Below are positions 9,570-26,246 of a stretch of 35,104 nt of DNA, one piece after another; positions within the stretch are counted from its first letter, which is position 1, and each line of letters begins with the position of its first letter. The position numbers and the translations under genes are program-made. A model generated the notes under the pieces. That model was not told the origin of the DNA. It ran no database searches and saw only the letters and a list, made by a program, of their open reading frames with translations. Location of the stretch: positions 1 through 35,104 of the forward strand of contig JASJXX010000021.1 of NCBI GenBank assembly GCA_030123765.1. The letters run 5' to 3'. Source of the DNA: Actinomycetota bacterium. Lineage in GTDB: Bacteria > Actinomycetota > Acidimicrobiia > Spongiisociales > UBA5794.

Positions 9570-9952
9570 AACACACCGAGGCGAGGGAGGAGGCACTCGG
9601 CGCCCTCTACGGAGCCGATACGCGTGGGCTCGACGTGATCGACATCACGAAGATCTCTCTCCGTGCTGCTGAGCTCGCCGAGGGCGCCTGGGATCGGCGC
9701 GAGGAGATTGATGGCGTGATCTCTCATGCCTCCTCTCACTGGCGGATAGAGCGGATGCCCGTTGTAGACCGCAACATTCTTCGGATCGGCGTCTACGAGC
9801 TGACCCAATCGGACCTTCCTGTGGGCATTGTCATCTCGGAGGCGGTCGAACTGGCGAAGAAGTATTCGACGGCGAAGAGTGGTGCATTCGTCAACGGCGT
9901 CCTCTCTGCGGTGGCCGACACGGTTGAGGATTCGGAGTCCGCGGAGATGTAG
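9566..9952 (+). CDS. nusB: Transcription antitermination factor NusB
   Basis: ARILRIGVYEL-type motif (DRNILRIGVYELTQSDLPVGIVISEAVELAKKYSTAKSGAFVNGVL). Confidence 0.93.
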   Translation: MKHTEAREEALGALYGADTRGLDVIDITKISLRAAELAEGAWDRREEIDGVISHASSHWRIERMPVVDRNILRIGVYELTQSDLPVGIVISEAVELAKKYSTAKSGAFVNGVLSAVADTVEDSESAEM

Positions 9953-9973
9953 TAGGGTTCCACGAAACACCGA

Positions 9974-10004
9974 CCTTTAATTCGGTCCTGCGAGGCCGTA
10001 AAGG
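9974..10004 (+). promoter_or_regulatory. PyrR-binding loop
   Basis: CCTTTA/TAAAGG outer stem enclosing GGTCCTGCGAGGCC, matching the PyrR-loop consensus UCCNGNGAGGY. Confidence 0.85.
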
Positions 10005-10014
10005 ATGGAGAACG

Positions 10015-10092
10015 ATGAAGCAGATCACGCGGCCGCACGCCCACAACGTGCGGTCTTTCTCGTTGCGGGAGGACCTTCGATGCGCCAGGTAA
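10015..10092 (+). CDS. Unannotated 25-codon leader ORF (MKQITRPHAHNVRSFSLREDLRCAR) overlapping the pyrR start
   Basis: SD-like AAAGGA 10000-10005, ATG 10015, TAA 10090-10092; overlaps pyrR ATG 10080. Too short for the supplied ORF track. Confidence 0.5.
   Translation: MKQITRPHAHNVRSFSLREDLRCAR
10033..10060 (+). terminator. Candidate attenuator/intrinsic terminator in the pyr leader
   Basis: ccgcacg-cccacaa-cgtgcgg 7-bp stem followed by tctttct. Confidence 0.5.
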
Positions 10093-10613
10093 TGTCAGAG
10101 ACGGAACTTGGTCGAGTCACGAGGCGGATCGCACACGAGATCGTTGAACGCAACCATGGCACGGAGAACATTGTCCTGGTTGGAATTCTCACCAGAGGCA
10201 AGCCGTTCGCTGAGCGAATAGCGAAGGTCCTGTCAGAGATCGAGGGTCGTCCCGTGCTGCCGGGGAGCCTCGACATCGGGATGTATCGTGACGACCTCGA
10301 TACCAGGCCGAAGACCAGGATCGGCCCCACAAACATACCAGAGAGCATCGACGGCAGAACAGTCATCCTTGCCGACGATGTGCTGTTCACCGGTCGGACG
10401 ATTAGAGCAGCACTCGACGCCCTTACTGATCTGGGTCGGCCGGGCGCTGTCCAGCTCGCCGTCGTGGTGGACCGCGGGCATCGGCAGCTCCCCATCAGGG
10501 CCGACTTCGTAGGCAAGAACATCCCGACCGCCGCCGCAGAGCGCGTCTCGGTGCGCTTTGAGGAGATCGACGGCGCAGACGGCGTGTGGATCGATGCGGG
10601 AGTGGAGGAATGA
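10080..10613 (+). CDS. pyrR: Bifunctional pyr operon regulator / uracil phosphoribosyltransferase PyrR
   Basis: GILTRGKPFAERIA, VILADDVLFTGRTIRAALDAL PRPP motif. Start ATG 10080 with gggagga SD instead of track start 10005. Confidence 0.95.
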   Translation: MRQVMSETELGRVTRRIAHEIVERNHGTENIVLVGILTRGKPFAERIAKVLSEIEGRPVLPGSLDIGMYRDDLDTRPKTRIGPTNIPESIDGRTVILADDVLFTGRTIRAALDALTDLGRPGAVQLAVVVDRGHRQLPIRADFVGKNIPTAAAERVSVRFEEIDGADGVWIDAGVEE

Positions 10614-11527
10614 ACCATCTGCTCACGATGGAGAACCTCGACAGGGGGACTCTTGAGAGTCTGCTCGACGAAGCCGACGACTTCGCCGAGGTGCTCACCC
10701 GACCGATCCCGAAGGTGCCCGCACTGCGCGGGAAGACCGTCGCCACCATGTTCTTCGAGCCATCTACCCGCACGAGGATGTCCTTCGAGAAGGCAGCGAA
10801 AGCGCTCTCTGCCGACACGGTTTCATTCTCGCCGGGAACCTCGGCGCTATCGAAGGGGGAGTCCCTCAAGGACACGGTGCTCACGGTGAGGGCTATGGGA
10901 GTCGACCTCATGATTGTGCGGCACCAGGCGACGGGGGCACCGTGGCGCATAGCGGAGTGGTTGGACATCCCGATCATCAACGGAGGCGATGGAGCCCATC
11001 AGCATCCGACCCAGGCGTTACTCGACTGTCTGACCATCCGTCAGCGATTCGGCTCCCTCGACGGGTTGACCATCGCGATTGTTGGCGATGTCAAGCATTC
11101 TCGGGTCGCTCGCTCAGACATCTTCGCCATGACCGCACTCGGGGCGAAGGTGATTCTTGTGGGACCGTCGACGCTTCTCCCGCTCGACCCGGAGGCGTGG
11201 CCGGTGACTGTGACGTCAAATCTCGATGAGGTTCTCGACGCCGTTGACGTCGTGTACTTGCTGAGGGTGCAGACCGAACGCGGTGGCGCCTCGGTCTTCC
11301 CCTCGCTTGCAGAGTACGCAGTGAAGTACGGAATGAACACGGAACGTCTCGCTCGTCTGAGGCCGGATGCCGTTGTGATGCATCCCGGGCCGATGAACCG
11401 CGGTGTCGAGATCGGGTACGACGTCGCTGACGATGACAGGTCTCTGGTGCTCCAACAAGTGACGAACGGGATCGCCGTGCGGATGGCAGTGCTGTTCCGT
11501 CTGATCGGAGGAGAGCAAGATGCATGA
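10610..11527 (+). CDS. pyrB: Aspartate carbamoyltransferase catalytic subunit
   Basis: FFEPSTRTRMSFEKAAKAL, GDGAHQHPTQALLD, HPGPMNRGVEI. Start ATG 10610. Confidence 0.97.
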   Translation: MNHLLTMENLDRGTLESLLDEADDFAEVLTRPIPKVPALRGKTVATMFFEPSTRTRMSFEKAAKALSADTVSFSPGTSALSKGESLKDTVLTVRAMGVDLMIVRHQATGAPWRIAEWLDIPIINGGDGAHQHPTQALLDCLTIRQRFGSLDGLTIAIVGDVKHSRVARSDIFAMTALGAKVILVGPSTLLPLDPEAWPVTVTSNLDEVLDAVDVVYLLRVQTERGGASVFPSLAEYAVKYGMNTERLARLRPDAVVMHPGPMNRGVEIGYDVADDDRSLVLQQVTNGIAVRMAVLFRLIGGEQDA

Positions 11528-12782
11528 TCTCGTTCTGGTCGGCGGGTCAGTCCTCACCGACGCGGGCCTCCGCACCACAGATGTAGCGGTCACCGACGGA
11601 AGGGTGACGGCCATCGGACGCGAGCTCGGGGAGTCCCGCGAGATCGTTGAGTGCTCAGGCGCGTGGGTCGGCCCGGGCTTTGTCGACCTGCATACACACC
11701 TACGCGATCCTGGTCACGAATGGAGAGAAGACATAGGGAGCGGGTCGGCTGCAGCGGCAGCGGGCGGCTATACCGCCCTGGTCGCGATGCCGAACACTGA
11801 CCCACCGATCGACGCCGGGCACCTCGCTCTGCGTATATCGGACGAGGCACGCAGAGTGGGTAAGGTCGCGGTTGTGTCGGCGGGATGCCTCACGATGGGG
11901 AGAGGGGGGGAGCGGATGGCGCATCTCGACGATCTCTGGTCCGCGGGGGTTCGACTCTTCACGGATGACGGAGACTCGCTCCAGAACGTCGCGGTGCTGC
12001 GCTCCGTCATGGAGTACGTGGCGCAGCTCGGCGGCGTCGTATCCCAACACGCGCTCGACGCCGATCTCTCCGGTGCAGGTTTCATGCATGAAGGCTCGGT
12101 CTCTTCCCGCCTCGGCATATACGGCATCCCGAGACAGGCGGACGACATCGTGATCGCCCGTGACATCGCGATTATGCGCATGACGGGGGTGCGCTATCAC
12201 GTGCAGCATCTCTCAACGGCAGGTGGGGTTGCACTCGTTGCTGCAGCGAAGGCGGAGGGGCTGCCGATAACTGCGGAGGTCACTCCGCATCATCTGATGT
12301 TCGACCACACAGCCGTCATGTCTACAGACTCCAACTTCAAGATGATGCCGCCGCTGAGAGAGGAGAGCGATAGGGAGGCTCTCGTCGAGGGCCTCCGATC
12401 GGGTGTCATTGACGCTGTCGCAACCGATCATGCGCCCCAGAGCGCGGTTGAGAAGGACGTACCCTTCGAGCATGCGCTCAACGGCGTGATCGGTCTTGAA
12501 TGGGCGGCATCGGTTGTCAACGGCGTGGTCTCGCTTGATCAGGACGTGTTCTTCGATCGCATGTCGATCACTCCGGCAGCCATCGCGGGGTTCACCGACC
12601 ACGGACGAGCGGTGGCAGTCGGGGCAGAAGCGAACCTCGTCGTCTTCGACCCGAACGTGAGATGGACGCCGACATCGACTCGTTCGAGGTCGCGCAACGC
12701 ACCCTATCTCGGGCGAGAACTCACGGGGAGGGTGGAGGTGACGATCCTCGGAGGGGCGATTACCTATGGAGGTGAACTATGA
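11520..12782 (+). CDS. pyrC: Dihydroorotase
   Basis: GFVDLHTHLRDPGHEWREDI, AMPNTDPPID, ATDHAPQ. Confidence 0.96.
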   Translation: MHDLVLVGGSVLTDAGLRTTDVAVTDGRVTAIGRELGESREIVECSGAWVGPGFVDLHTHLRDPGHEWREDIGSGSAAAAAGGYTALVAMPNTDPPIDAGHLALRISDEARRVGKVAVVSAGCLTMGRGGERMAHLDDLWSAGVRLFTDDGDSLQNVAVLRSVMEYVAQLGGVVSQHALDADLSGAGFMHEGSVSSRLGIYGIPRQADDIVIARDIAIMRMTGVRYHVQHLSTAGGVALVAAAKAEGLPITAEVTPHHLMFDHTAVMSTDSNFKMMPPLREESDREALVEGLRSGVIDAVATDHAPQSAVEKDVPFEHALNGVIGLEWAASVVNGVVSLDQDVFFDRMSITPAAIAGFTDHGRAVAVGAEANLVVFDPNVRWTPTSTRSRSRNAPYLGRELTGRVEVTILGGAITYGGEL

Positions 12783-13945
12783 GAGAGGGGCTGCTTGTCA
12801 CAGCGGACGGAGCGGTGTTCCGCGGCAGGTCAGGAGGTGTTGCGGGCGTCGCGACAGGCGAAGCGGTATTTAACACTGCGATGACGGGGTACCAGGAGAT
12901 CATCACAGATCCTTCCTACGCTGGTCAGATTGTGATTCTGACGGCGCCCCAGATCGGAAATTATGGATCAACCGATCGTGACGACCAGTCGTCCCGAGTC
13001 CACGCACGTGCGCTCGTAACGAGATCAATGAGCAGGATCGCCTCTTCGTGGCGCTCCACAGAGCCCTTCGACGAATATCTTGTGCGTCACGGCGTGGTCG
13101 CTCTCTGCGATGTCGACACCCGGCGTCTCACACGCCACATCCGTGATCATGGGGCCATGCCTGTGGCGGTGGGAACGGAGATCGACGAAGCAGAGCTCGT
13201 CGAGCTCGCTGCGGCCGAGCCCTCGATGGTGGGACAGGACCTCGCGAGCGCCGTGTCCACTACGGAGAAGTACTTGTGCAGAGCCACGACCGACGCTGTC
13301 GGCCACGTCGTCGCGTTCGACTTCGGGATTAAGACGGAGATGATTCGCTCGTTGAACGGCCGCGGTCTCGACGTCACCGTGGTTCCTGCATCGACGTCGG
13401 CTGCCGAAGCTCTCGCGCTCCAGCCCGACGCTGTCTTCCTCTCGAACGGCCCGGGCGACCCGGAGCCGCTTGCAGGGCCGATTGAGGCGATCAGGGGCCT
13501 CCTCGGAAAGACCCCCGTGTTCGGAGTCTGCCTCGGGCACCAACTCCTGGGCCTCGCGCTCGGTGCAACCACGTTCAAGTTGCCCTTCGGCCATCACGGA
13601 GGGAACCACCCGGTGCGAAGGCTCTCAGATGGAAGAGTGGCGATCACCTCCCAGAATCACGGGTTCGCTGTCGATCTGTGGTCCCTTGCAGGCGGAGAGC
13701 GCCCCGCCCGCCGGGGACTCCCGACTCCGGATCTGCTGCCCGTGAGCGTCGAGACGCAATTCGGCGACGTGTCGCCCACCCATCAGAATCTCAACGACGG
13801 CACGACGGAGGGTCTGGAGTGCCGGGACGTTGACGCCTTCTCGGTGCAGTATCACCCGGAAGCGGCCCCCGGCCCGAACGATGCAACCGTCCTCTTCGAC
13901 CAATTCGCCACCATGGTGAAGGAGAGCCGTGCCGAAACGACGTGA
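12779..13945 (+). CDS. carA: Carbamoyl-phosphate synthase small subunit
   Basis: [52 protein letters not shown]. Confidence 0.97.
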
Positions 13946-16900
13946 CATCAAGTCGATCCTCGTGATCGGCTCTGGTCCGATCATCATCGGCCAAGGGTGC
14001 GAGTTCGACTACAGCGGCACGCAGGCTGTGAAGGTGCTGAGGGAGCAGGGCTACCGCGTCATCCTCGTGAACTCGAACCCTGCGACGATCATGACAGATC
14101 CCGAGTTTGCCGACGCGACGTATATCGAGCCGATCACCGCCTCTGTGGTCGAACAGATTCTGCGTAAGGAGCGTCCTGACGCCGTGCTCCCCACGCTCGG
14201 TGGCCAGACGGCTCTCAACGTCACGATGGAGCTCGCGAAGCGGAACGTCTTCGACGACCTTGCGATCGAACTCATAGGAGCCTCACTTGACGCAATTGAG
14301 GCTGCAGAAGACCGCGGCCGCTTCAAAGAGATCATGGAAGCCGCGGGTATGGAGACGGCCGAGGGACACTACGTGAGGTCGATGGAAGACGCGAGAGCCG
14401 CGGTCGAAGACCTCGGTTACCCCGTGATGGTCCGTCCAAGCTACATCCTGGGCGGGGGAGGAACGGGCCTCGCGTACGACGAAGACGAGTTCGAGCGAGT
14501 CGTCCAGATCGGCATGGACGCCTCTCCAATCGGCGAGATCCTGATTGAGGTCTCCGTGTACGGTTGGAAGGAGTTCGAGCTCGAAGTGATGCGGGATTCA
14601 GCGGACAATGCAGTGATCGTATGCTCGATCGAGAATCTCGATCCTATGGGCGTCCACACCGGGGATTCGATCACAGTCGCACCCGTGATGACGCTCTCCG
14701 ACCGGGAGTATCAGGCAATGCGGGACGACGCGATCGCGTGCGTGCGCGCGATCGGTGTTGAGACCGGTGGCTCAAACGTGCAGTTCGCTGTTGATCCGAA
14801 GACAGGGAGAAGGATCATCATCGAGATGAACCCGCGCGTGTCGCGTTCCTCTGCCCTTGCATCCAAGGCGACCGGGTTCCCCATTGCAAAGATGGCCGCG
14901 CTGCTCGCCGTCGGTTTCACTCTCGATGAGATAGCGAACGATATCACGGGGGCAACACCTGCCTCCTTCGAACCTGCCCTCGACTACGTCGTCGTGAAGG
15001 TGCCGAGGTTCGACCTCGCGAAGTTCCCCTCGGTCGAACCGGTGCTTGGCACCTCGATGCAGTCGGTCGGTGAGGCTATGGCGTTCGGCAGGACGTTCCC
15101 GGAAGCGCTCCAGAAAGCGCTGCGCAGCCTCGAGACCGGCCGCTGGGGCTTGAACGCCGACGCGGGTGAGGAGCGACTGAGGGAGCTCAACGATGATGAG
15201 CTCCAGGCGCGTGTCGCCGTGCCGAGTCCCGAGAGAGTCTACGAGGTCGCGGAGGCGCTCTATCGAGGTGCTGACGCGAACGAGATCGCCGAGGCAAGCT
15301 TTATCGACCCATGGTTCATTGATCAGATCGCGCAGGTCGTAGAGCTTCGTGGAACCCTGGAGTCCCGGGTGTCGGATCCCTCCCTGCTTCGCGAAGCGAA
15401 GCGCTTCGGTTTCTCAGACAAACAGCTCGCGTATCTCTGGAATCAGACGGCGTCCGATGTCGCCGAGCTCCGAAGAGAGCACGGCATCTCCGTGACATAC
15501 AAGACGGTTGACACCTGCGCTGCAGAGTTCGAAGCTCAGACACCGTATTTCTACTCTACGTTCGAGGACGACAGCGAGGCGCCGCCCGCAGGCACAGATA
15601 CTGTGATGGTGCTCGGATCCGGTCCGAACAGGATCGGACAAGGCATTGAGTTCGATTACTGCTGCGTGCACGCTGCTTTCGCGCTCGAAGACGCCGGCTA
15701 TGAGACGGTGATGGTCAACTGCAATCCGGAGACTGTCTCCACCGATTACGACACGTCGACGCGGCTCTACTTCGAACCACTCACCATTGAGGATGTCCTG
15801 GCCATAGTGGCGGTGGAGAAGCCCAAGGCCGTGATCGTGCAGTTCGGCGGACAGACCCCGCTCGGCCTTGCACATGAACTGGAGATGGCAGGGGTCCGGA
15901 TCGCAGGGACCTCGCCAGACTCCATCGACATGGCAGAGGACAGAGAGCGCTTCGCCCTCCTCTGCTCCGAGCTCGGCATCCGCCAGCCTCCCCACGGCAC
16001 GGCCGTGAATCTCGACGGGGCCATGGCCGTCGTCGACGAGATAGGGTTCCCTGTCATCGTGCGTCCCTCCTACGTGCTGGGGGGGAGAGCGATGCGGATC
16101 ATCTACGGCGTAGAGGAGCTCAGCAGTTATCTCGCGGACTTGTACTCCGTCGCACGCGGTAGCGAAGTGGACCTCTCTGCATCCCCTCTGCTCATAGATC
16201 GGTTCCTTGAGTCGGCTATTGAGGTGGACGTCGACGCGGTGTACGACGGTAACGATATGTATATCGGGGGGATCATGGAGCACGTCGAAGAGGCAGGAGT
16301 CCACTCGGGCGACTCTGCATGCGTCGTGCCCCCTCCGACTCTCTCTGATCGGGTGATCGACGAGATCCGTGAGGACACGCTGAAGTTGGCGAGGGGACTC
16401 GGCGTCCGTGGACTTCTGAACATTCAGTTCGCACTGCGCGGTGACGACCTCTTCGTTCTTGAAGCCAACCCGAGAGCCTCCCGAACAGTGCCTTTCATCT
16501 CGAAGGCGACAGGCGTCCCCCTTGCCAAGGTGGCGACGAGAGTGATGATGGGAGAGACGCTTGCCGACCTCAGGAAGGCGGGTGTCCTGCCTCACCAGAC
16601 TCCGGAGCTGCCGTACGTGGCGGTGAAGGAGGCGGTTCTTCCGTGGAAGCGTTTCCCGAACGAGGACACGCTGCTCGGCCCCGAGATGCGTGCCACGGGT
16701 GAGGTGATGGGGATCGGTCCCACAGTGGCGGTAGCGTACGCGAAGGCGCTGAGTGGGGCGGGCCACGTGGTGCCTAGCGGCGGCTCGGTATTCATCTCCC
16801 TCGCGGATCGGGACAAGGCGCGAGGTGTCGAGATTGCGCAGATCCTCATCGACCTGGGTTTCAAAATCTTCGCAACCCACGGCACGGCCGGGCACCTCGC

Positions 16901-17189
16901 GCGTAAGGGGATCGCGGCAACTCACGTCGACAAGGTGGGGGAGGGCGCCTACGACCCGGTTCGTCTCATTGAAGAGGAACGCATCGACTTGATTGTGAAC
17001 ACACCCGCAGGGGGGAAGGCGCGAGGCGACGGAAGGATCATCCGACTCGCAGCGACGAGGCACGGGATCCCGTGTGTCACGACGGCGGAGGGCGGCCTCG
17101 CCGTAGCGAGGAGTATCGTCGCAGCACGAAGCGGGACATTTGAAGTTGTGAGCATCCAGGACCACCATGAGGCTGCAGGTCTGAGATGA
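13929..17189 (+). CDS. carB: Carbamoyl-phosphate synthase large subunit
   Basis: 1086 aa, duplicated ATP-grasp halves ([17 protein letters not shown] / [17 protein letters not shown]); GTG start. Confidence 0.98.
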
Positions 17190-26026: not shown

Positions 26027-26123
26027 TCCCCGGATCAGGGCCTCCTGCCGCCTCGCTCTCTCAGATCGCAGAGTTCGCTGCTACCCGATAGTACGTTGCG
26101 TCTACTACCGTCTCTGTCACATA

Positions 26124-26239
26124 CCTCTTTCAGGGCAGGGTGCAATTCCCGACCGGCGGTGAGAGCCCGCGAACCCCACTAGGGGCCGATCCGGTGGAAT
26201 TCCGGTGCCGACGGTGAGAGTCCGGATGGGAGAAAGGGG
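26124..26239 (+). promoter_or_regulatory. FMN riboswitch (RFN element)
   Basis: Conserved RFN blocks: TTTCAGGGCAGGGTGCAATTCCCGACCGGCGGTGAGAGCCCGCGA...GGGGCCGATCCGGTGGAATTCCGGTGCCGACGGTGAGAGTCCGGATGGGAGAAAGGGG. Confidence 0.97.
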
Positions 26240-26246
26240 ACGCTTG

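Follow-up and report, generated by a model that had tools for sequence, protein, structure and literature searches.

The pyr operon leader in the window (the whole 35,104-nucleotide stretch of DNA that was analysed) probably acts as a translation-gated transcription attenuator run by PyrR. As judged from the sequence, a predicted PyrR-binding loop covers the ribosome entry site of a short leader open reading frame (ORF) that overlaps pyrR, and an intrinsic-terminator-like hairpin is nested inside this ORF (Table 1). Comparison with related leaders inclines us, with less assurance, to a broader view: in much of Actinomycetota outside the class Actinomycetes, PyrR would gate the ribosome, which in turn would gate a terminator lying within the first ORF, about 5-8 codons from its start (as far as about 20 codons or beyond in other families). 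In many families this terminator would itself be pyrR coding sequence with a TPPYGGVF or PxGGRF signature, so that an N-terminal extension of PyrR would exist for its RNA.

Table 1. Predicted features of the pyr leader and operon (positions in the window)
Feature	Position	Strand	Remark
-10-like hexamer TAGGGT	9953-9958	+	predicted promoter of the pyr operon (putative)
PyrR-binding loop	9974-10004	+	predicted; the Shine-Dalgarno (SD) sequence has its 5' half in the 3' arm, TAAAGG
SD region of leader ORF, AAAGGATGGAG	10000-10010	+	predicted anti-SD pairing of -6.9 kcal/mol
Leader ORF, 25 codons, MKQITRPHAHNVRSFSLREDLRCAR	10015-10092	+	start position, frame and stop conserved, peptide sequence not
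Terminator-like hairpin (10031-10055) and T tract	10031-10064	+	within the leader ORF, 16 nt past the start codon
Alternative hairpin, T tract paired with pyrR SD	10052-10075	+	window only, not conserved
SD of pyrR, GGGAGGA	10067-10073	+	
pyrR	10080-10613	+	match to PyrR protein families and solved PyrR structures
pyrB, pyrC, carA, carB	10613-17189	+	operon behind the leader

The locus is organized as efp-nusB-pyrR-pyrB-pyrC-carA-carB, with the nusB stop at 9952. The product of pyrR was assigned by the family models NF003547 (243.7 bits against a cut-off of 230) and NF003549 (also over its cut-off), and by matches to solved PyrR structures with a best E-value of 1.5e-56. Its start, which reads MRQVM, is supported by the presence of a start codon (ATG, GTG or TTG) at the same place, -12, in 46 of the 51 leader-ORF relatives. 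Initiation of PyrR in frame at 10005, which the first-pass annotation had held out as one outcome fatal to its reading, is unlikely, as this position lacks the proper SD spacing and is not conserved. An ATG found at the same place in four relatives opens another frame and runs into a stop after two to four codons. Several nearly complete genomes of relatives (six listed, among others) gave no close PyrR match.

The predicted loop consists of a lower stem of CCTTTA (9974-9979) and TAAAGG (9999-10004), an upper stem of CGGTC (9983-9987) and GGCCG (9994-9998), and an apical CTGCGA. The hallmark of a PyrR loop, UCCNGNGAGG in a bulged stem, is found here. The Rfam model of the PyrR binding site (RF00515) aligns with the loop and the hairpin together over 9970-10061, scoring 33.9 bits with an E-value of 0.004, below its gathering score of 54. 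The sequence and this below-cut-off match bear out the earlier proposal of a consensus PyrR loop whose 3' arm overlaps the SD of the leader ORF. RNA folding, suggested alongside it, gave -11.2 kcal/mol for the loop and -16.3 kcal/mol for the hairpin, the latter with a z-score of -3.4 against shuffles; the folding energy of the whole leader showed no excess (z 0.48). Leaders of the window's order have CCTTT/AAAGG as the lower stem, and most families in the remainder of Acidimicrobiia have CCGT/ACGG instead, which reads as a large compensatory switch. A GCCCGAGAGGC motif in four relatives proved to belong to the loop of the terminator, not to a PyrR loop. In one family of the set, eight leaders keep the loop at a gap of 117-135 nt to pyrR, mostly with no start codon near the loop.

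Upstream of the loop, TANNNT hexamers in 139 relatives peak at 25-27 nt (also at 28-33 nt) from the loop core; the three peak positions together hold 72 of them, where an average position has about 2. The TAGGGT of the window sits 32 nt from the core. Transcription thus probably starts near 9965, about 10 nt before the PyrR loop.

The unannotated leader ORF, first proposed from the sequence of the window, stood up exactly as described, running from ATG to a TAA and overlapping pyrR by 13 nt. For comparison, pyrR leaders were drawn from the genus, family, order, class and phylum of the window. Of the 66 leaders from the window's order, 53 have an ATG 5-15 nt downstream of the loop, where shuffles predict 13.4; elsewhere in the class a start codon follows the loop in 58 of 65 against 21.2 expected. 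These counts come from related genomes and genera and not from independent events. The best SD overlaps the loop arm in 78% of the leader ORFs, and the frame is identical in 25 of the 30 genera of the order. The leader stop overlaps the pyrR start by 13 nt in 27 leaders and by 4 nt (ATGA-type) in 18. Loop, ORF start, frame and stop/start overlap therefore recur beyond chance, as the conservation check proposed at the outset required. The converse, that relatives might keep the loop without the ORF or the hairpin, does not apply to the ORF start and frame in most of the window's order; it does apply to the terminator, which several genera lack. By contrast with its start, frame and stop, the leader peptide itself is not kept: substitutions in the window's order number 29, 27 and 31 at codon positions 1, 2 and 3, with no codon-type conservation. 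The length of the open frame was discarded as evidence, since about 73% of shuffles stay open.

The hairpin inside the ORF had been described as a 7-bp stem at 10033-10053; it is present, with nine pairs over the wider span given in Table 1, and is followed by TTTCTCGTT, a T tract that is modest in the window. It is the sole match of the terminator scan in the region. At a strict threshold (score of 24 or more), 53 of the 131 leaders from Acidimicrobiia contain a terminator; dinucleotide shuffles gave 0.61, and pyrR coding stretches of the same length gave none. A fold-based detector that allows bulges found 68, compared to 13.7 in shuffles and 3 in pyrR coding sequence, its additional finds including two further genera. 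The stem sequences vary among relatives while the pairing is kept. The distance from the start codon to the beginning of the hairpin is 15-21 nt in 20 of 21 leader ORFs. In all 23 leader ORFs with a hairpin the frame stays open past it, although the two other frames would also run through the hairpin without a stop, in 17 and 22 cases, respectively.

Other families of Acidimicrobiia display a different architecture, in which the unit of loop, start codon and terminator is fused in frame to pyrR with no separate ORF, for example VAERERRLTPPYGGVF. Within the class outside the window's order, 49 of 54 genera have the start codon that follows the loop in the reading frame of pyrR. Among the fused leaders, the hairpin begins 23-24 nt from the start codon in 16 and 36-78 nt from it in others. 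The fused unit opens with the conserved codons AERERR. Ahead of the hairpin in 21 fused leaders that follow the pattern VAERERRLTPPYGGVFVAR, the entropies of the three codon positions are 0.58, 0.42 and 1.56; because the codons vary mostly at third positions, this stretch is translated. The following TPPYGGVF is a reading of CCCC-GGGG-TTTT, an intrinsic terminator, so that the DNA of the PyrR N-terminal extension AERERRxTPPYGGVF is a predicted terminator in 18 listed leaders and in others; the extension of further families carries PxGGRF. To judge from these codons, the fused leaders are the best evidence for a ribosome passing over the terminator.

In the window, the terminator lies ahead of the first gene of the pyr operon. 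As it stands between the promoter-like element and pyrR, it must be conditional, and the PyrR loop with the adjoining ribosome entry site is the expected control point; we infer that PyrR-nucleotide blocks this entry. When pyrimidine nucleotides are low, the loop would be free and a ribosome would enter through the SD, which overlaps the 3' end of the loop and extends just beyond it. Translating the leader ORF close behind RNA polymerase, it would cover the hairpin, and transcription would reach pyrR-pyrB-pyrC-carA-carB. When UMP or UTP is high, PyrR would lock the loop, no ribosome would start, and the hairpin would fold as an intrinsic terminator, ending transcription about 95-100 nt into the leader. 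The presence of the ribosome would matter and the peptide would not; in sister families the terminator is translated along with the N-terminus of PyrR. Sequence and comparison show the parts, how they are spaced, that they recur, and that the hairpin region is translated in fused families; these findings point to PyrR binding here, to termination and to rescue by the ribosome as the putative steps that join them. The main physical worry is the tight timing, since RNA polymerase leaves the ribosome a stretch of roughly 20 nt in which to load.

Two layers of control had been envisaged by the first-pass annotation. The first, in which PyrR blocks leader translation and so exposes the hairpin, agrees with the placement of the loop over the ORF entry site and of the terminator inside the ORF. 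The second, an uncoupling of pyrR, fared poorly: pyrR has its own SD, predicted at -10.3 kcal/mol and thus stronger than that of the leader ORF, and the hairpin that would hide it, a duplex of the T tract with the pyrR SD at -14.9 kcal/mol in the window, is absent from relatives of the window's genus.

Attenuation in Bacillus subtilis combines a PyrR loop with a downstream intrinsic terminator and relies on an antiterminator (Rfam RF00515; PMC4347634). The same succession of loop and terminator is present in the window, which raises the alternative that the loop serves as an anti-antiterminator, that an antiterminator joins its 3' side to the 5' arm of the terminator, and that the ORF is incidental. 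The Rfam model indeed aligns both elements in this order, and the loop and terminator arm of the window could pair at -14.0 kcal/mol. However, such pairing is no better within a species than between swapped species (-9.7 and -10.1, respectively), and its median z-scores against shuffles are 0.18 and 0.75, in a test that is weak, as the Firmicutes control reached only -0.96. Species swaps and shuffles of the relatives' leaders, with this modest control, thus yielded no conserved antiterminator pairing of loop with terminator, in contrast to the B. subtilis system, which has no gate in the form of a leader ORF. Moreover, the fixed start codon, the frame and the terminators in the translated start of pyrR would be left unexplained. 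We consider this alternative unlikely, although the pairing in the window by itself would permit such a switch in this genome.

A second alternative follows the pyr operon of Mycobacterium smegmatis, in which PyrR reportedly acts by translational repression (work ascribed to Fields and Switzer in 2007). Repression would be passed on to pyrR by coupling through the overlapping ORF, and the hairpin would be secondary. Both systems have an actinobacterial PyrR, and in both a PyrR loop is situated where ribosomes first bind the operon's transcript; the M. smegmatis leader is said to have no terminator, whereas the window has a hairpin and a T tract. Coupling would fit the loop over the first ribosome-binding site, the stop/start overlaps of 4 or 13 nt, which are the rule, and the several genera in which loop and ORF are retained and the terminator is absent. 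Against it, most leaders provide pyrR with a separate SD (73% reach at least -5 kcal/mol in strength, compared to 25% in the coding background), and the terminator is strongly enriched at a constant distance from the start codon. As an account of the window it is improbable, to much the same degree as an antiterminator; it is probably the true mode in the terminator-less clades, and possibly an added effect in the window. That the ORF is accidental, with pyrR translated from the SD in front of it and the hairpin serving merely in RNA processing or stability, would suit the lack of codon-type conservation in the peptide but is very improbable: chance falls far short of explaining how well the start, the frame, the position of the stop and the terminator are conserved, and the fused sister arrangement is plainly translated.

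The translation-gated attenuator that we favour is unevenly distributed. In the window's clade of 11 sequences from four genera, ORF and terminator occur together in 11 of 11, as placed on a quick, weakly supported PyrR tree that served only as a rough map of states. Here the single arrangement of ORF and terminator described earlier holds; beyond the clade the two are separable, as some genera have no terminator and many families are fused with no separate ORF. Terminators occur in 46 of 84 Acidimicrobiia genera, nearly half having no recognisable one. In other families of Actinomycetota, 35 of 55 leaders have loop and terminator, 19 of them also with an ORF that reaches pyrR, and none of the 37 loci of the Actinomycetes type (e.g. 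Streptomyces and Microbacterium) has a terminator. On the same weakly supported tree, the layout (ORF, fused or direct) takes a minimum of 12 changes and terminator presence a minimum of 31, which indicates that the terminator comes and goes.

The idea of combining the two modes, put forward in the first-pass annotation as the part to examine, is not wholly new. For the pyr genes of Thermus ZO5, Van de Casteele et al. are said to have proposed in 1997, in J Bacteriol, that a translating ribosome and not an antiterminator prevents the terminator from forming. A PyrR site, a leader ORF and a terminator are common to both, and the layout ascribed to Thermus, with the ribosome-binding site at the PyrR site and the terminator inside or at the ORF, is found here. 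Thermus belongs to another phylum, and the proposal reportedly came from one sequence, compared to more than 130 leaders here; what sets the window's group apart is the overlap of leader stop and pyrR start and the fused arrangement, whose terminator belongs to pyrR itself. A plasmid search returned no Thermus pyrR. In E. coli pyrBI, a terminator in a short leader ORF just upstream of the pyr genes is likewise relieved by the translating ribosome; there the sensor is UTP-dependent pausing, and here it would be PyrR at the ribosome entry site. No description of Acidimicrobiia pyr leaders was found in the literature searched, which also appears to contain no report of a separate ORF that overlaps pyrR, of its fused counterpart or of their occurrence across Actinomycetota.

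PyrR is known to attenuate transcription in Firmicutes and to repress translation in mycobacteria. An arrangement where PyrR would block translation and thereby bring about termination joins these two modes and probably fills the gap between them, and suggests how either could give rise to the other through loss of the antiterminator or of the terminator. It also offers comparative support for a mechanism reportedly proposed only once, and presents a regulator gene whose first codons contain a terminator. As a point of caution, RNA would have shaped the N-terminus of PyrR in many actinobacteria, and the AERERRxTPPYGGVF and PxGGRF extensions may be misread as protein domains.

Elsewhere in the window, an FMN riboswitch (RF00050, 111.5 bits) at 26122-26241 lies upstream of a probable riboflavin operon, with ORFs that by eye resemble ribD (called from 26205), ribE (27290) and ribBA (27898).
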